A DNA stretch of 64,000 bases. Source: Bacillaceae bacterium. GTDB taxonomy: Bacteria > Bacillota > Bacilli > JACDOE01. The stretch lies in contig JACDOE010000003.1 in the NCBI GenBank assembly GCA_017656255.1, positions 126,457 to 190,456 of the forward strand, in the 5' to 3' direction. This document shows, piece after piece, positions 13,780 through 21,875 of the stretch. The notes under the pieces are model-generated. The model made no database searches and was not told where the DNA came from. It was given only the letters and a program-made list of their open reading frames with translations. Each line of letters begins with the position of its first letter. Position 1 is the stretch's first letter. The position numbers were made by a program, and so were the translations under genes.

Positions 13780-14703
13780 CTATTCCAGGCTAGTAAACAT
13801 TTCGACAAGTTGGATAATGGTGGGTGCAAGTAAGACGATAAATATACTGGGGAAAATGAAGATAACTAGCGGAAAAAGCATTTTAATCGGGGCCTTCATG
13901 GCTGCTTCTTCTGCTCTTTGCTTTCTTTTATCCCGTAATTCATCAGACTGAATCCGAAGGACATTGACCATTCCAATTCCCATCCGGTCTGCCTGAAGGA
14001 TTCCGTTTATGACACCTGTTAATTCATCCAGGTTCATGCGCTCCTTTAATGAATTGAGGGATTCCCGTCGATTACGACCAATTCTGATTTCATCCAGATA
14101 TCGGCTGAACTCTTCTCCAAGAACACCATGTTCTTTTTCAACAATTTTACCGATAGATGAATCAAAACCAAGGCCTGCCTCCATACTAACTGTAAGTAAA
14201 TCCAGAAAGTCCGGCAGTTCTTTCAAAGCCTGCATCCGTCTTTTTTTTGCTTTTTGCTGCAGATAAAACTGAGGGTACCATAAACTAAATGCAACTCCAA
14301 CCATTAACACTAAAATAACCTGCAGGGTGGAATAACCGATTAAGAAGAAGTACCCGGCTAATATAATAGGTATGATAATAACAAATAATATTTGAATCAA
14401 CCGAAAATCGACAGGGGTCAAATTAAAGGGATTTCCTGCCTGTAGCAATTTTAATTCCAGTTCATCTTTTTTACCACCGGAAATTTTACTTCCCACTTTT
14501 TTTCGAACTTCATTGGTTAATGGAACGATCGCCCTTTCCATCAGTGATTTTTCTTCTTCAATTTCTTCCTTTGTTTTCGGTTGCCCCAGCGAATTCAGAC
14601 GGCGCTTGACAGAACTTGCCTGATTTCGAGAAAATAGACTGGCTACACCATAGAACAAAAGTAAAGTTGTTGCAAAAATGCTTAACAATAATATTTCCTT
14701 CAT
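13780..14703 (-). CDS. tadC: Tad pilus platform protein TadC (T2SSF domain)
   Basis: A 307-residue inner-membrane platform protein of the type II secretion F family, one half of the TadB/TadC pair that anchors the pilus motor. Hydrophobic segments lie at the N-terminus (EILLLSIFATTLLLFYGVA), around residues 105-150, and at the C-terminus (FPLVIFIFPSIFIVLLAPTI). The T2SSF core shows LPDFLDLLTVSMEAGLGFD and the second helix pair with LADRMGIGM-like sequence. It follows tadB by four bases and is the last gene of the pilus operon. Confidence 0.9.
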   Translation of the reverse strand: MKEILLLSIFATTLLLFYGVASLFSRNQASSVKRRLNSLGQPKTKEEIEEEKSLMERAIVPLTNEVRKKVGSKISGGKKDELELKLLQAGNPFNLTPVDFRLIQILFVIIIPIILAGYFFLIGYSTLQVILVLMVGVAFSLWYPQFYLQQKAKKRRMQALKELPDFLDLLTVSMEAGLGFDSSIGKIVEKEHGVLGEEFSRYLDEIRIGRNRRESLNSLKERMNLDELTGVINGILQADRMGIGMVNVLRIQSDELRDKRKQRAEEAAMKAPIKMLFPLVIFIFPSIFIVLLAPTIIQLVEMFTSLE

Positions 14704-14707
14704 TGTG

Positions 14708-15679
14708 CTATACCTCGATCGTTACAATTTTTTTAATCATTAAAAATCCTAGTAGGCTGGAAATGACGCCTACCACTACTAGGGCAATGCCAAGCGGATT
14801 TCGAAATAATGTTAAAATATAATTTTCATCCATAAGGTAGATCACTATCCCCAGACCGAATGGCAAAAATCCGACAACGTATCCGGATAATCTTCCCTGT
14901 GCTGTCAGGGTTCTTATTTGCCTCTGAATCCGGTTTCGTTCCCGAATTGTATTGACAATGGTAGAAATTATAGTAGCAAGGTTTCCTCCAACCTGTCGTT
15001 GCACAACAACCGCTTCTATCAAAAGTTCGAGATCATAACTCGGCACCCTTACTTTTAGATTGTTTAATGCTTCTTCAAGGGTTCTTCCCCACTGCATTTC
15101 CCGAATGACTGTATCCAACTCTGTACTGATCGGATCATCCATTTCATCGGCAGCCGTTTGTAGAGCCTGTGGAAAACTGAATCCGGCTCGAAGAGAGCTG
15201 ACCATTGTATTTAATGCTTCTGGTAGTTGTTCATTAAATCTTTGCAGGCGCTGGTCGATCCGCCTCTTTATCCATATTTTGGGTAGCATCCATCCGGCAA
15301 AGAGACCGATAATTCCCATAAAAATAGATCCCGTAATCAAATTTGTTAGAAAAAAGAGTAACAGTGTAAAAATAATTCGAAATACGATATACTCTTCAGC
15401 ATGTAATTGCAAACCGGCAGCGGTCAACTGATTCTGTAATACCTGCAACTTCTCTTTCGTTGTGAATCGCGTTCCCATGCGTCGTGCTGCCTGATTAAAT
15501 TCAAGGATTTGTTTCCTTCTCTTTTCCTTCAATTTTTCTTTTTGTTCGTCATCCAACTCATCAACAAGGTGTTTCAGACGGCGATTTACTTCAGCTTTGT
15601 TAACAAACCTCCATGATAGAAGGCTATATATGAAAAAAAAGATGGTTAATCCTGCCAGTATCAAAAGGATGACTTCCAC
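14708..15679 (-). CDS. tadB: Tad pilus platform protein TadB (T2SSF domain)
   Basis: Partner of TadC in the membrane platform. Starting at GTG 15679 (GGAGGAG about nine bases upstream) gives 323 residues beginning VEVILLILAGLTIFFFIY; the longer frame to 15808 lies inside tadA and is not credible. The T2SSF core is LPEALNTMVSSLRAGFSFPQ and the second half has VQRQVGGNLATIISTIVNTIRERNRIQR, typical of TadB. The start is two bases after the tadA stop. Confidence 0.9.
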   Translation of the reverse strand: MEVILLILAGLTIFFFIYSLLSWRFVNKAEVNRRLKHLVDELDDEQKEKLKEKRRKQILEFNQAARRMGTRFTTKEKLQVLQNQLTAAGLQLHAEEYIVFRIIFTLLLFFLTNLITGSIFMGIIGLFAGWMLPKIWIKRRIDQRLQRFNEQLPEALNTMVSSLRAGFSFPQALQTAADEMDDPISTELDTVIREMQWGRTLEEALNNLKVRVPSYDLELLIEAVVVQRQVGGNLATIISTIVNTIRERNRIQRQIRTLTAQGRLSGYVVGFLPFGLGIVIYLMDENYILTLFRNPLGIALVVVGVISSLLGFLMIKKIVTIEV

Positions 15680-15680
15680 G

Positions 15681-17084
15681 TTACCACTCTCCTCCAGGAA
15701 TAAAGATGCTACTGGGAATATGAATACCGGAAGTCTCCAGTCGTTCATAGAAATGAGGTTTAATTCCAGTAGGAACAAGTTGTCCGAGAATTTTCCCTTC
15801 CTCATCAACGCCGGTCTGTTTAAAAGTAAAAATTTCCTGGAGTACGATTGTATCTCCTTCTAATCCCAGTACTTCCGTAATGCTGGTGATTTTTCGAGAA
15901 CCATCTCTCAATCTGGATTGATGAACGATAACATCCAGCGCACCTGCTATCTGTTCCCTAATTGCACGTACAGGCAATTCAATTCCGGCCATCAAAACCA
16001 TTGTTTCCAGCCTGGAAATCATATCGCGAGGGCTGTTAGCGTGACCGGTACCCAGTGAACCATCATGCCCGGTATTCATTGCTTGAAGCATGTCCAGAGC
16101 TTCTGCTCCACGAACCTCCCCGACCACAATACGTTCAGGTCTCATACGCAGAGAATTGCGGACCAAATCACGAATGGTGATTTCCCCTTTCCCTTCCAGA
16201 TTAGGCGGTCGGGTTTCAAGAGAGACAACGTGCTCCTGTCCCAATTGTAATTCAGCTGCATCCTCAATGGTGATAATTCGCTCATCAGAAGGAATAAACG
16301 ATGACAGGACATTCAGGGTCGTCGTTTTACCGGATCCTGTACCCCCACTAACGAACATATTTAATTTTGCCTTAACGCAGGCATCCAGGAATGTTGCCAT
16401 CTCCTGTGTAAGCGTTCCGAAACTAATCAAATCATCAATCGTAAAAGGATCACTTGAAAATTTACGAATCGTGATTGTGGGTCCGTTAAGAGCCAGAGGT
16501 GGTATGATCGCATTCACACGAGACCCATCAGGAAGGCGTGCATCCACCATAGGTGAACTTTCATCGATTCTTCTCCCCAGGGGGGCAACAATTTTCTCAA
16601 TGATATTCATGACATGCTGATCGTCACGAAATTTGAGATCGCTCAGTTCAATTTTCCCCTTTTTCTCAACATAAACCTGGTCCGGTCCATTGACCATAAT
16701 CTCTGTAATATCGTCATCTACAAGAAGATCATTCAGCGGACCAAACCCGGTCGCTTCATCGATCAGTTCCCTGATCATCCGCTGTTTCTCCTGGGGTTTG
16801 ATCTCGGTTTCTTCTTTTAGGACGTTTGAAGCAATTTCTTCAATCTTTTTTTCAATCCCCTCTTCATCTTCGTCCTTAATTTCTTTGATCAGCTCATTTT
16901 GAAGACGGGTTTTAATCTGTTCGTATTTTTCCTCTTTTGGAGATTTAGCTTTTGTTGCTTCACGCTTACTCTTTCCGGAAGAATCTTTTCTGAATTTGTT
17001 AATGATCTTGCTATCCGGTTTTTGGATCTCCTCCTGCTCCAGATCCCGTTGTTGTTCCTTAAGACGTTGGAGAAGGCTGCTCAT
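15681..17084 (-). CDS. tadA: Tad pilus assembly ATPase TadA/CpaF
   Basis: Secretion-type hexameric ATPase that powers Flp pilus assembly at the cytoplasmic face. The 467-residue protein has a charged N-terminal region, an N-domain around DEATGFGPLNDLLVDDDITEI, Walker A SGGTGSGKTTTLNVL, an Asp box (IITIEDAAELQL), Walker B-type RIVVGEVRGAEALDMLQAMN and the His box GHDGSLGTGHANSPRDMISR. This order is diagnostic of CpaF. Its start overlaps the end of cpaE by 26 bases. Confidence 0.95.
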   Translation of the reverse strand: MSSLLQRLKEQQRDLEQEEIQKPDSKIINKFRKDSSGKSKREATKAKSPKEEKYEQIKTRLQNELIKEIKDEDEEGIEKKIEEIASNVLKEETEIKPQEKQRMIRELIDEATGFGPLNDLLVDDDITEIMVNGPDQVYVEKKGKIELSDLKFRDDQHVMNIIEKIVAPLGRRIDESSPMVDARLPDGSRVNAIIPPLALNGPTITIRKFSSDPFTIDDLISFGTLTQEMATFLDACVKAKLNMFVSGGTGSGKTTTLNVLSSFIPSDERIITIEDAAELQLGQEHVVSLETRPPNLEGKGEITIRDLVRNSLRMRPERIVVGEVRGAEALDMLQAMNTGHDGSLGTGHANSPRDMISRLETMVLMAGIELPVRAIREQIAGALDVIVHQSRLRDGSRKITSITEVLGLEGDTIVLQEIFTFKQTGVDEEGKILGQLVPTGIKPHFYERLETSGIHIPSSIFIPGGEW

Positions 17085-17925
17085 GCTTCAATTCCCCTTT
17101 CTGTCTGCTTGAAAAGAGGCTTCTGATAAAACCGCAACATTTTTTCGAATTCATCGTTTTTACATTTTCTATTTTAAGTGTTGTGTCCTCATTGTTTGAA
17201 ATGACCTGCGCAAGCTGGACGATAGCTCTTGCTACGTCGGTCTGGCTCCGGGTAGATGCCAGCGGAATGCCGCGATTAATGGAAGTTGTGACAGCCTGTG
17301 GTTGATCCGGAATCGGTACCGGTTCAAGATCCGGGAAAATGCGAAGAACATCATTGTATTTAATCTCACTTTTTTCCACGACTCGATTCATAATCAAACG
17401 AATTTTGTCTTGCATTCCCAGAGATGAAAGGGTATCCACATATTGTCTTGCAGCCTGAATGCTTGACAAATCCATTGTAGACACCACCATAATGTCCGTT
17501 GCCTGATCGACGGCCACCAGTGTGTGTTCATGAAAACCGACTGCGGTATCGACAACAAGATAGTCAAATTGAGCAGACAACTTTTGGATGATACTTTCCA
17601 CATCCTTAGATGTAATCAACTCTGCCTGCTCCGGTCGCGACGGAGGCGGAAGGATCTGAATGCCACTGGAATGCCTAATTAAATAATCTTCCAGTCGTGT
17701 ATCCGGATCTTCACGTTGAGATTCAATGTAATCGAACACGGTGTACCTGGGGTCAATGTCCGTCAAAATAGAAATATCACCGAACTGAAAATCGGCGTCG
17801 ATCAGACATACACGATAGCTTGCTCTGGCCAGAGCAATACTTAAATTTGTTGCCATGACGGTACGACCGGAACCACCCTTCGGTCCACAAACAACAATGA
17901 CTTTGTTTTCCGACGTTCTACTCAT
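17059..17925 (-). CDS. cpaE: CpaE/TadZ-like MinD-family ATPase
   Basis: A 288-residue MinD/ParA-type ATPase that in Tad systems localises the pilus machine to the membrane. It has a deviant Walker A CGPKGGSGRTVMATNL, switch-like DADFQFGDISILTD and the Walker B strand FDYLVVDTAVGF. There is no N-terminal receiver-like domain, which many CpaE proteins have, so it is the short TadZ form. A basic cysteine-containing tail (KKCCGFIRSLF) near the C-terminus could be a membrane-targeting helix; that is inference. Confidence 0.85.
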   Translation of the reverse strand: MSRTSENKVIVVCGPKGGSGRTVMATNLSIALARASYRVCLIDADFQFGDISILTDIDPRYTVFDYIESQREDPDTRLEDYLIRHSSGIQILPPPSRPEQAELITSKDVESIIQKLSAQFDYLVVDTAVGFHEHTLVAVDQATDIMVVSTMDLSSIQAARQYVDTLSSLGMQDKIRLIMNRVVEKSEIKYNDVLRIFPDLEPVPIPDQPQAVTTSINRGIPLASTRSQTDVARAIVQLAQVISNNEDTTLKIENVKTMNSKKCCGFIRSLFSSRQKGELKHEQPSPTS

Positions 17926-17961: not shown

Positions 17962-18657
17962 CTACTCTTTCTGTGTTTCACTAGTTTCCTTTGCCTTTGA
18001 ACGAAGTGTCAGATAAAGTGTACCCCTGGATTGCCAGTGTACAAGTGTCCTTGCCTGCGTATCATCCACATCAAGAGTGACAGCCTGATAATCATTTGCC
18101 CCATTTTTTTGTTCATTCCTGAGTTTATCTTTAGGAATTAATCGTTGACCAACCGCCAATACGGGAATATCCTGGAGAAGTGTCTCTGTCACGACCTGAG
18201 CATTTTCGTTAGGTGCATAGGTAACAAGAACATTGACACGATCTCCAGGTTCGATCAAATTCGATACCGATGATGTATAACTGACGTTAATTGAAACAGC
18301 TCTTTTTTTAGGCGGAATGACATGTGACAGAATTTCAATTTGATCTTTATCATCGAGCAAGCGATGTTTAAGAACAATTTCACCTTCTGCAAAATTGGTG
18401 GATGCAATTTTCCCGACTACTTGATTTATATCACTTACAGCATTACTGTAAGATTCTGAATAAGGAATCTCCACCGATTCGACCATCTGACTGGTGATGG
18501 TCTGGTATGGAGATACAGGCTGTGTGGTTTGAACCACGGTTATTGTTTTCTGTCCAATTGTCGTTTCAAAAGACATACTGTTCATGTAATAATAAAATAC
18601 GCCTGTGGTAATAGCCGCCAGTATCACTGCAATGATGAAAATGGTTCTTGTTTTCAT
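17962..18657 (-). CDS. cpaB: CpaB/RcpC family SAF-domain pilus assembly protein
   Basis: A 231-residue protein with one N-terminal membrane anchor (TIFIIAVILAAITTGVFYYY) followed by a SAF domain (VVQTTQPVSPYQTITSQMVE, then NFAEGEIVLKHRL) and a C-terminal RcpC-type domain (RAVSINVSYTSSVSNLIEPGDRVNV). In diderms RcpC supports the secretin; in monoderms the CpaB homologue stays with the pilus machine in the envelope. It lies 36 bases before cpaE. Confidence 0.88.
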   Translation of the reverse strand: MKTRTIFIIAVILAAITTGVFYYYMNSMSFETTIGQKTITVVQTTQPVSPYQTITSQMVESVEIPYSESYSNAVSDINQVVGKIASTNFAEGEIVLKHRLLDDKDQIEILSHVIPPKKRAVSINVSYTSSVSNLIEPGDRVNVLVTYAPNENAQVVTETLLQDIPVLAVGQRLIPKDKLRNEQKNGANDYQAVTLDVDDTQARTLVHWQSRGTLYLTLRSKAKETSETQKE

Positions 18658-18717: not shown

Positions 18718-19635
18718 TTAGAAACTGAGGCGTAACGCATATGCCCCGAAGTCTTCCTGGGTCTCAGATCCGTATGAATTCGGCCAGACTCCATTAATAA
18801 ATTTGCCCACGATTCCTTTATTGTCACTGGTTAAGTCTTCTATGTAAAACAGGGCAAAGCCTACTATAACAACTTCTTTCAGGGTTCCTGATTCATAGAT
18901 AGGGTCGTATACCGGAAGTAACATGACCCGTGTACAATCTCTGCTATAATTATCGTAGCTATTCGGCGGTTCCGGGCAACCATCCATACGATACTGAATG
19001 GCATCTCTTGTTTTACCGGTTACTACACCGTGTTCCGTATCAAAGCGATCACCAGCTTCTATAAATTCAGGATAACCGTGCATCAGGTATTCGTTATACC
19101 AGTCTGCCCCCGGGAGATGCCCCATACTTAAAACTCCCGTGTAACCGATGTCCGGATTACTTAGTTTCAGAACATAACTCTGGCTTCTGTCAAGCGTTTT
19201 GTACCAGTCTCTGTTGACTCCGACTGGAGCCACTCCTTTTGCTTTGGTAATCGACTCAATCACGGCTGCTGAATGAACTTGAACGTCTACAGTGTCGATT
19301 CCTAAAATTCTGGCAAACGACATGGTTACGTTTTTATTTACTACAGCTTCAATCCGATGATTTTCATTTTCAAGTTGTATATTGTTTAAATCATGTGTTG
19401 CATTTTCACTTAATATGTTTGTTGCTACATCTATAGCTTCATCCGGTTCGGATGGAAGAGATTGTCCTCCTGATAATACTGCTGAATTGGCAGCTCTCTG
19501 CAAATGACTTTTTTCTGCATAAACCCGGCCAAAATCTACAACAAACGCAACGATTCCTAGAATGACAAACATCGTTACCATTAAAATCAGAACGACAGAG
19601 CCTTCTTCTTTTTTTAACAAACTTTTAATTAACAT
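18718..19635 (-). CDS. tadG: TadG-like Flp pilus minor component
   Basis: A 305-residue protein with the N-terminal Tad/TadG signature: KKEEGSVVLILMVTMFVILGI, a hydrophobic helix then DFGRVYAEKSHLQRAANSAV, which is typical of the putative Flp pilus-assembly TadG-like domain. The remaining ~220 residues are exposed and largely family-specific, with two cysteines near residues 218 and 229 that could form a disulfide. The gene starts two bases after tadE. Confidence 0.8.
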   Translation of the reverse strand: MLIKSLLKKEEGSVVLILMVTMFVILGIVAFVVDFGRVYAEKSHLQRAANSAVLSGGQSLPSEPDEAIDVATNILSENATHDLNNIQLENENHRIEAVVNKNVTMSFARILGIDTVDVQVHSAAVIESITKAKGVAPVGVNRDWYKTLDRSQSYVLKLSNPDIGYTGVLSMGHLPGADWYNEYLMHGYPEFIEAGDRFDTEHGVVTGKTRDAIQYRMDGCPEPPNSYDNYSRDCTRVMLLPVYDPIYESGTLKEVVIVGFALFYIEDLTSDNKGIVGKFINGVWPNSYGSETQEDFGAYALRLSF

Positions 19636-19637
19636 GG

Positions 19638-20060
19638 TTATTCAACCCTTATTGTTGTTTTTATTGAAATTTTTTGTTCCGGAGATATAAGACTGGACAG
19701 CCCGGGAGAATATAATTTCATAGGATAAGAAATAAACACTGTCATATATTGTCCGGATACCGGTCCAGACAGTAAATTTCCTGATTGATCATGATATGTA
19801 ACAGATGGTTCTAATAATGTTGAATCCTCGACAAGAGCGTTCGTTTCAATATATTCAAGGATTTGCGTTTCTGTTGCTCCAAGACTGCCAATTCTGGCCG
19901 CATCCTGGCTTATAGAGGTTAAATGAAGAAAAGTAAAAAATAACCTTCCACCATCTATAATAATTAAAACAATTAAAAACAGGACGGGAAGCGCCAGGGC
20001 GAATTCGACCATTGACTGTCCCTTTTCATTTTTCCAAGACTTTTTTATCAACTTTACCAC
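19638..20060 (-). CDS. tadE: TadE-like pseudopilin
   Basis: TadE proteins are minor pseudopilins of the Flp pilus. The sequence KNEKGQSMVEFALALPVLFLIVLIII has the TadE processing motif (G then QSMVEFA) and hydrophobic helix. The start is uncertain: GTG 20060 overlaps the end of tadV, and TTG 20051 has GGGGTGG at good spacing. The upstream part of the longest frame lies in tadV and is excluded. Confidence 0.85.
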   Translation of the reverse strand: MVKLIKKSWKNEKGQSMVEFALALPVLFLIVLIIIDGGRLFFTFLHLTSISQDAARIGSLGATETQILEYIETNALVEDSTLLEPSVTYHDQSGNLLSGPVSGQYMTVFISYPMKLYSPGLSSLISPEQKISIKTTIRVE

Positions 20061-20569
20061 CCCCGCAGCCCGATTGTGATTACTGTTCCACATACGATCG
20101 CCACGCCATACGGATACATAACTGAGGAATAATCAGTGGCAACAACCGGTATTTTAATTCCTTTTATCCTTAACCATAGTGCGAGGAAAGCCCTTCCAAC
20201 ACGTTTGAATACCAACCAGTTTTTCTGGTACAGCACAATCCCCAGTGCAATGACCCCACCGGCAAGCGCCGTGTATATAAACGCATAAAAAACAAATGCA
20301 CTTCCTTTCAACGCACCGATCGTCCCCAGAAGCTTGACATCTCCAGCTCCCATCCCTCCCATCAAATAAGGAATAAGAAGGAGCCCTATCCCTGCAAATA
20401 ACCCGGAAACGGACTTGAATAATCCCGGTAAACCATATAAATAAAACGACATAATAAACGCGATTATGATGGCAGGAAACAAAACTTTATTATAAATTTT
20501 TCTTTCTTTTAAATCGGTAATTAAACTGATGGTGAGAACCAGGATTAATGTAGAATTGATGATGAACAC
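20054..20569 (-). CDS. tadV: Prepilin peptidase TadV/CpaA (A24 family)
   Basis: Integral membrane aspartyl protease that trims Flp prepilins. Both catalytic aspartates are in their expected context: SLITDLKERKIYN in the first loop and GGMGAGDVKLLG (GxGD motif) in the second. GTG 20569 is chosen because AGAGAGG lies eight bases upstream; it gives 171 residues and several hydrophobic segments. It is the first gene after the stem-loop that separates pilin genes from assembly genes. Confidence 0.9.
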   Translation of the reverse strand: MFIINSTLILVLTISLITDLKERKIYNKVLFPAIIIAFIMSFYLYGLPGLFKSVSGLFAGIGLLLIPYLMGGMGAGDVKLLGTIGALKGSAFVFYAFIYTALAGGVIALGIVLYQKNWLVFKRVGRAFLALWLRIKGIKIPVVATDYSSVMYPYGVAIVCGTVITIGLRGW

Positions 20570-20602
20570 AGGGGACACCTCTCTATCCCTTATTTAAAAT
20601 AC

Positions 20603-20667: not shown

Positions 20668-20853
20668 TTACTCGATACTTCTAATTGCTGCGGTGGTTTT
20701 TTCAAACATTTCTCGGGTATCGTCGGATAAAATTAAAATGTAAGCCAATACAGTTAAGAAAGCAACCACTCCAACAGTGATTCCATACTCCGTCATACCC
20801 TGACCTTTCTCTTCATCCAGAAAGGCCTTAAGCTTGTCCAGCATAACAAACAT
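20668..20853 (-). CDS. flp: Flp family type IVb pilin, second copy
   Basis: A 61-residue Flp prepilin. The leader DKLKAFLDEEKGQ precedes the processing site G with QGMTEYGI, then a hydrophobic helix (TVGVVAFLTVLAYILIL) and a short polar tail. It is 11 bases after the first pilin gene. Compared with that copy the tail is more acidic (SDDTREMFEKTTAAIRSIE), so the two may have different roles in the fibre. Confidence 0.9.
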   Translation of the reverse strand: MFVMLDKLKAFLDEEKGQGMTEYGITVGVVAFLTVLAYILILSDDTREMFEKTTAAIRSIE

Positions 20854-20864
20854 GTCCAGTTTGA

Positions 20865-21047
20865 TTAGATGGAGTTCTTTGCAGTTTCAACAGTTGTTGT
20901 AGCTTTTTCAAACAGACCTGCGATCTGATCTCTGAATGCAAGCAGAGCTCCAATTGTCGCAATCGCAATTACCCCAAGAACCAAACCATACTCAGTCATA
21001 CCCTGTCCTTGTTCCTCTACTACCAGCGCTTTTAATTTGTTCATCAT
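20865..21047 (-). CDS. flp: Flp family type IVb pilin, first copy
   Basis: A 60-residue Flp prepilin, likely the major subunit: leader MMNKLKALVVEEQGQ, processing motif GMTEYGLVLG, hydrophobic helix VIAIATIGALLAF and tail ending VETAKNSI. GGAGAGATG lies upstream of the tandem start codons. The motif GQGMTEYG is the classical Flp signature. It lies between the DUF192 gene and the second pilin. Confidence 0.92.
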   Translation of the reverse strand: MMNKLKALVVEEQGQGMTEYGLVLGVIAIATIGALLAFRDQIAGLFEKATTTVETAKNSI

Positions 21048-21146: not shown

Positions 21147-21515
21147 TCAAATATTCAGCACAGCTTCTTCATGTTGCAACACTTCCAGCCTGTCCCATAT
21201 TTTAATCTTATTCTTTTGAATCGTGCCGGCCGGAAGCTCAAGAACCTGGGACACATTTTCAAACTTTTTACCAACCCGGTTAGGCGGAAGATTCTCTTCA
21301 AGACCCATCACTCGACCTGTTTCATCCAGATAAACCACATCAATCGGAAATTTCATCATGAAGGTGTGTATGGATGAACATGGCCGAATCAACAACCCCT
21401 GTCCATTTTCCAGCCTCTCTTCGGGGATCAGACCCTTCAGCCTCTGGAAAAAAGATTGGGCGATTCTCACATCGTCGGCCACTTCTTTCCCGGATGCCTG
21501 ATTGATCACCTTCAA
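21147..21515 (-). CDS. DUF192 family protein
   Basis: A 122-residue DUF192 protein, marked by RLKGLIPEERLENGQGLLIRP-like sequence, then CSSIHTFMMKFPIDVVYLD and VLELPAGTI near the end. The family fold is a small beta barrel of unknown function; it is often found near Tad/Flp genes. It is the first gene of the transcript after the cyclic-di-GMP riboswitch. The start is TTG 21515 with GGGGGTGG seven bases upstream. No signal peptide is visible. Confidence 0.85.
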   Translation of the reverse strand: MKVINQASGKEVADDVRIAQSFFQRLKGLIPEERLENGQGLLIRPCSSIHTFMMKFPIDVVYLDETGRVMGLEENLPPNRVGKKFENVSQVLELPAGTIQKNKIKIWDRLEVLQHEEAVLNI

Positions 21516-21587
21516 TCATGTACCACCCCCATGTGCCATCATTTGAGAAAATACTTCCTTAATTGTTAATTTTTAAAAACGGTGGGT

Positions 21588-21621
21588 AAAAAAATTCCAC
21601 CTTCCTGCCGAAAGATGGAAT
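21588..21621 (-). terminator. Riboswitch-controlled intrinsic terminator
   Basis: On the minus strand a 12-bp hairpin, ATTCCATCTTTC (21610-21621) with GGAAGGTGGAAT (21594-21605) around GGCA, runs into seven T residues (21588-21594). An alternative fold pairs TGCCGAA-GGAATG from the aptamer's 3' end with CATTCC and TTCGGCA, which would consume the terminator's left arm. The two folds exclude each other, the usual form of an expression platform. Confidence 0.85.
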
Positions 21622-21638
21622 GCAACCTATCTGACATT

Positions 21639-21737
21639 CCTTCGGCAACTGGCTGGCGAATATCCGATCGACAGATATTGACGCCCCTTCCAGCTTTGCG
21701 CCCCTGGCTTTCACCAGGTTTGCCATTTGTCGAGAAG
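21639..21737 (-). ncRNA. Class I cyclic-di-GMP riboswitch (GEMM-I)
   Basis: The aptamer reads on the minus strand TCGACAAATGGCAAACC, then the hairpin CCTGG-TGAAAG-CCAGG with its GNRA loop (21703-21718), then GGGCGCAAAGCT, the conserved junction. A long P3 arm follows (CTGG/CCAG, GGCG/CGCC, AATATC/GATATT), then GTTGCCGAAGG closing the aptamer. These are the defining elements of GEMM-I. It lies upstream of the DUF192-flp-flp-tad operon. Because the 3' closing strand is also the antiterminator strand, ligand binding should favour termination (an OFF switch); that direction is inferred from the fold. Confidence 0.88.
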
Positions 21738-21754
21738 TATTTTCTCCTTGTCAC

Positions 21755-21784
21755 ATTTCAAATTCTAGCAGAGGAATTTGTCAA
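21755..21784 (-). promoter_or_regulatory. Possible sigma-A promoter of the riboswitch-pilus transcript
   Basis: Minus-strand TTGACA (21779-21784), 18-base spacer, TGAAAT (21755-21760). The -35 box is perfect and the -10 box matches four of six positions; it lies about 20 bases before the aptamer. Confidence 0.5.
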
Positions 21785-21875
21785 TGAAAATAGGCTTTGT
21801 GACGCATTTTTCCAAATGCCTGTAAAACCCTGTCATACCGGGAAAAATAAAAAAATTCAGGACGTAGGTCCTGAA

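Follow-up and report, generated by a model that had tools for sequence, protein, structure and literature searches.

Among the closest described systems is Cd1 (Cdi-1-3), which precedes the flagellar operon of C. difficile; its antiterminator engages C87, a ligand contact, together with the adjacent nucleotide, and is displaced by the terminator at extended times (PMC9262584). The functional roles of Vc2 G20 / Cd1 G11 and Vc2 C92 / Cd1 C87 used here are taken from the same work, with the base at Vc2 G20 / Cd1 G11 steering selectivity among cyclic dinucleotides (PMC9262584). Every class I riboswitch tested in C. difficile acted as an OFF switch, and a putative adhesin is among the loci that c-di-GMP turns down (PMC6200980). 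In the B. cereus group (Bacilli), the adhesin gene cbpA lies behind Bc2, a class I switch of the ON type (PMC7423583); as such, class alone does not fix the sign and the direction needs case-by-case testing. In Caulobacter, moderate c-di-GMP increases Tad pilus activity and peak c-di-GMP leads to retraction (PMC6581867). To date, the open-access papers searched have yielded no description of a c-di-GMP riboswitch in front of Tad genes, and priority is not claimed.

Here we analysed a stretch of 64,000 nucleotides of a Bacillaceae genome (hereafter the window), in which a DUF192-flp-tad operon is very probably controlled by a transcriptional c-di-GMP-I OFF riboswitch. What was computed is the aptamer with its terminator, two pairings that exclude one another and their energies, and, in relatives, recurrence and coadaptation of the pairing; from these, ligand binding, kinetic control and the effect at the cell level are predicted.

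Leader, aptamer and operon

A first-pass annotation, made from the sequence, had assigned the leader to the GEMM-I class, and its landmarks and coordinates proved correct. The covariance search of the minus strand with RF01051 returned a full-length match (model 1-87 of 87) well above the gathering score of 35 bits, which is the sole Rfam match within the window, and GGCAAACC, P2 with its GAAA cap, GGGCGCAAAGC and GTTGCCG were all found. On these grounds the element is a complete, putatively ligand-binding c-di-GMP-I aptamer. Model position 11 (Vc2 G20 / Cd1 G11) is a G, consistent with c-di-GMP over cGAMP as the predicted ligand, and the CC of UUGCCGAA aligns to the consensus, covering the Vc2 C92 / Cd1 C87 position. 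The P3 receptor region GGGGCGUCAAUAUC deviates from the consensus gGguCUAAgg, and the score of 56.9 bits compares with 73-89 bits for the complete RF01051 matches of relatives, therefore the affinity of this aptamer is uncertain.

The gene upstream (23198-21876) encodes a CBS/DRTGG/HTH protein and has its own terminator (21877-21854), which, together with the promoter-like site, indicates that the leader is a separate unit, with transcription expected to start near 21755. A perfect 13-nt inverted repeat (21746-21733 / 21558-21545; 14 pairs with G-U; 5/5000 shuffles) would close the whole leader in the readthrough RNA, covering part of AAGGAAG. This 14-bp helix was dropped as a part of the switch, as it is not conserved in loci with the same gene order, and a mobile-element origin of the repeat is unsupported, the genome holding just one further copy of the 13-mer. 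A tiny open reading frame, ATGATGGCACATGGGGGTGGTACATGA (MMAHGGGT; 21542-21516), stops immediately ahead of the DUF192 gene, which starts with TTG, and possibly encodes a leader peptide.

Table 1. Features of the leader and the operon behind it (window positions, all on the minus strand).
Feature	Positions	Strand	Basis
Promoter-like site TTTTCA, 17 nt, TGcTAGAAT (extended -10)	21762..21790	-	Consensus scan, 9/12 with TG; lead only
c-di-GMP-I (GEMM-I) aptamer	21641..21734	-	RF01051, 56.9 bits, E 1.8e-8
Antiterminator 5' arm UGCCGAAGGAAUG	21635..21647	-	Nascent-transcript pairing
Antiterminator 3' arm CAUUCCAUCUUUCGGCA	21606..21622	-	Overlaps terminator 5' arm and loop
Intrinsic terminator stem-loop, 12 pairs, -14.7 kcal/mol	21594..21621	-	T tract 21593-21588 next
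Weak second hairpin GGUGG/CCACC, -5.8 kcal/mol, then GTTTTT	21581..21601	-	After terminator
DUF192 protein, first operon gene	21147..21515	-	PF02643, 75.7 bits
Flp pilin 1	20865..21047	-	PF04964, E 6e-5, below curated cutoff; relatives at Tad loci
Flp-like pilin 2	20668..20853	-	47% identical to Flp pilin 1 over 55 residues
TadV prepilin peptidase	20054..20578	-	PF01478
TadE-like pseudopilin	19638..20093	-	PF07811
TadG-like protein	18718..19635	-	PF13400
RcpC/CpaB	17962..18657	-	PF16976, 99.5 bits
TadZ/CpaE-like (ParA/TadZ-like) ATPase	17059..17925	-	PF13614 and related
TadA/CpaF motor ATPase (T2SSE)	15681..17084	-	PF00437, 233 bits; relatives to 70% identity
TadB-like membrane protein	14708..15808	-	ORF and order, inferred from position; true start probably inside ORF
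TadC-like membrane protein	13780..14703	-	ORF and order, inferred from position

The Pfam matches corroborate the DUF192-flp-flp-tad operon that had been proposed behind the leader, with Flp (a match below the cutoff), TadV, TadE/G, RcpC, TadZ and TadA in order, and with the second Flp, for which Pfam gave no match, recognised by its identity to the first. A 15-bp hairpin (20640-20607) lies between flp2 and tadV and is possibly an attenuator, or an mRNA-processing site favouring pilin over machinery. DUF192 genes are also found in or beside other Tad operons (L109-L113, L053:13345-13689, L068:7194-7559 and L102:4681-5112), first in several operons of Bacilli and last in two of clostridial type; a link between DUF192 function and Tad would merit testing.

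Expression platform and direction of control

The platform agrees with the earlier proposal of a terminator and of an antiterminator built from the 3' strand of the aptamer: the 12-pair stem is followed by a T run, and both the energies and the comparison with Cd1 fit the two antiterminator arms. UGCCGAAGGAAUG consists of the aptamer 3' end and the following six nucleotides and pairs with CAUUCC...UUUCGGCA, its UGCC (21647-21644), which is matched by GGCA in the other arm, belonging to the ligand-binding end of the aptamer. With the UGCC free the antiterminator reaches -16.6 kcal/mol, compared with -9.1 kcal/mol without it and -14.7 kcal/mol for the terminator. The antiterminator contains aptamer residues whereas the terminator contains none, and the gap of ~ 20 nt between aptamer and terminator leaves room for the terminator beside the bound aptamer, an arrangement that the OFF switch Cd1 shares and the ON switch pilM does not. 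The computed folds, set beside PMC9262584, thus have the Cd1-type OFF arrangement of an aptamer-independent terminator and an antiterminator drawn from the aptamer 3' strand.

The leader fold (21734-21570) has a z of -3.4, with 0/200 shuffles equally stable. In nascent-chain folding the antiterminator appears 34-42 nt past the aptamer, ahead of the complete terminator 3' arm, and when the aptamer 3' end is held a weak antiterminator remnant is all that forms before the terminator dominates. In the equilibrium fold with the whole terminator out and without ligand, the terminator is favoured (0.98). Given that equilibrium prefers the terminator even when unliganded, switching would have to be kinetic, as found for Cd1.

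Energies, folding and comparison all support the ligand-OFF direction. At low c-di-GMP, the 3' tail would leave the aptamer once CAUUCCAUCUUUCGGCA emerges, and the antiterminator would mask the terminator 5' arm, letting RNA polymerase enter the pilus genes. When c-di-GMP is bound, the ligand pocket would retain the UGCC, the residual antiterminator would be too weak to compete (-9.1 vs -14.7 kcal/mol), and the terminator would fold and end transcription. At the cell level, Tad pili would be made at low c-di-GMP and turned off upon commitment to sessile life.

Tad operons in related genomes

Relatives were sampled at class level (Bacilli, 399 genomes), the family and order sets containing none. 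The Flp search gave a match in 38 of the 399 genomes, and 16 of these 38, the window's genome included, carry a same-strand GEMM-I aptamer upstream within ~ 1.5 kb, where ~ 0.001 per locus is expected by chance. Our own covariance model, R1, captured 11 pairs and is mainly sequence-driven, therefore its hits in Bacilli Flp loci were rechecked with Rfam, which at the gathering score confirmed 15/15 relatives: 13 are full-length RF01051, L129 belongs to the variant RF03167, and L114 is truncated by a contig end. Six more Tad loci, reached via TadA, also have an aptamer, as identified by R1 (E 7e-11 to 4e-18), i.e., Neobacillus muris L033, Fredinandcohnia L026, and the clostridial or unclassified Bacillota loci L045, L053, L068 and L089.

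Five loci (L109-L113) have the gene order riboswitch, DUF192, flp, tadV in common with the window. The logic of their platforms is kept and the sequence changed, for example with UUACCGAAAG pairing with CUUUCGGUAA in L109, and CCGAAAG with CUUUCGG plus UAGGG with CCCUA in L110; in the more distant L136 the pair is GCUGAUUG with CAAUCAGU. In L033, the pairing of CCAUUCUUC with GAAGGGUGG faces competition from the aptamer tail, and the equivalent segments appear, from the modelled pairing, to act on the ribosome site. Across 22 loci the aptamer tail and platform are coadapted, pairing at a mean of -11.6 kcal/mol within a locus vs -9.5 kcal/mol with the platforms of other loci (1 of 20,000 permutations). 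The shuffled-platform test gives p = 0.002 for the window; combined over all loci, the Fisher value of 3e-11 overstates the case as some loci are related, and at L128, L116, L114, L068, L089 and L141 tail pairing is no better than shuffles. In ten relatives, freeing or holding the tail alters the stability of the nascent fold by 4-11 kcal/mol. With this recurrence before Tad genes across many Bacilli and some Clostridia, the OFF direction looks like a rule that is conserved rather than peculiar to one genome.

The best-surviving alternative, which we consider unlikely, is a real aptamer with weak or absent regulation, either because two successive terminators hold the leader largely OFF with or without ligand, or because the degenerate P3 receptor drops affinity below cellular c-di-GMP. 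The weak second hairpin with its GTTTTT could also stop readthrough, being exclusive with the terminator because it reuses the terminator 3' arm, and such a reading is in keeping with the terminator favoured at equilibrium, with the bit score below that of relatives and with the behaviour of Bc1 in B. thuringiensis (PMC11218506). However, the second hairpin reaches only -5.8 kcal/mol, and the tail-platform pairing of the window ranks second in strength among the 22 loci, which suggests selection for switching. Less probable still is an ON switch like Bc2 at the adhesin gene cbpA, in which the ligand would increase readthrough: that direction would suit the idea of c-di-GMP promoting attachment, class I ON switches are known in Bacilli (PMC7423583) and the related cGAMP switch pilM is ON (PMC9262584), but here it is the antiterminator, not the terminator, that uses aptamer residues, and the relatives retain the OFF logic despite their different sequences. 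GEMM-I variants with altered selectivity exist (PMC9262584), but the G at position 11 and the match to RF01051 make the sensing of 3',3'-cGAMP or another dinucleotide very improbable.

The source genome has nine GGDEF matches, suggesting that c-di-GMP can be made, as well as two flagellin-domain genes and eight GEMM-I aptamers, two of which precede chemoreceptors and have OFF-like platforms. Under the OFF reading, the simplest interpretation is that cells would produce Tad pili along with their motility apparatus and cease doing so as c-di-GMP increases. Of the GEMM-I aptamers in the genome, the strongest (contig C2:99486-99571, L105) lies ahead of a protein with an HD domain (HD-GYP-like), which suggests that c-di-GMP turnover is under feedback. 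Two others (C5:27753-27830 and C5:30295-30373, L102) directly precede SinI-like ORFs (PF08671), followed by SinR-like genes, and adjoin a second Tad locus, which has no aptamer to itself; for Bacillus methanolicus, a riboswitch for c-di-GMP has been listed upstream of sinI (PMC4342826).

Comparison with described switches

The component parts are of known kinds, and it is the recurrence of c-di-GMP-I aptamers before Tad operons that is new here, adding the Flp/Tad pilus family to the targets of c-di-GMP riboswitches, with a consistent predicted sign across ~ 20 loci of Bacilli and Clostridia. For Gram-positives the prediction is that Tad pili are off at high c-di-GMP. A broader proposal, which we regard as evenly balanced between right and wrong, is that Tad-bearing Bacillota generally employ c-di-GMP-I OFF riboswitches to halt Tad pili and same-genome chemoreceptors as c-di-GMP rises, so that Tad pili would be pre-attachment structures in Gram-positives, with the paired segments of the Neobacillus branch acting on translation and not on termination.

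Cd1 is likewise a class I aptamer with a terminator compatible with the bound aptamer, and as in the window its antiterminator captures the C that contacts the ligand, along with the adjacent base, and its terminator is favoured at long times. In contrast to the window, which has a possible short P1 (CUUC/GAAG) and Tad pili, Cd1 controls flagella and is described without P1. The opposite design is found in pilM, where the terminator uses an aptamer strand, which the window terminator does not. Bc2 resembles the window in its class, its host group (Bacilli) and its surface adhesin target, but is reported as ON, unlike our prediction. Bc1 before mcpE in B. thuringiensis shares the class I aptamer and two successive terminator-like hairpins; its dual terminator is weak-then-strong and blocks the response in vivo, whereas in the window it is the second hairpin that is weak.

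The first-pass annotation had called the OFF direction unexpected, taking class II switches as its yardstick. Such a comparison is misplaced: the c-di-GMP-II riboswitch of C. difficile pilA1 (type IV pili) also places a pilus operon under c-di-GMP control, but it belongs to another riboswitch class, acts in the opposite direction and serves another pilus family. The direction is less surprising beside the class I OFF switches of C. difficile and the retraction of Caulobacter Tad pili at peak c-di-GMP, the latter of which the predicted Gram-positive shut-off would parallel via an unrelated mechanism.
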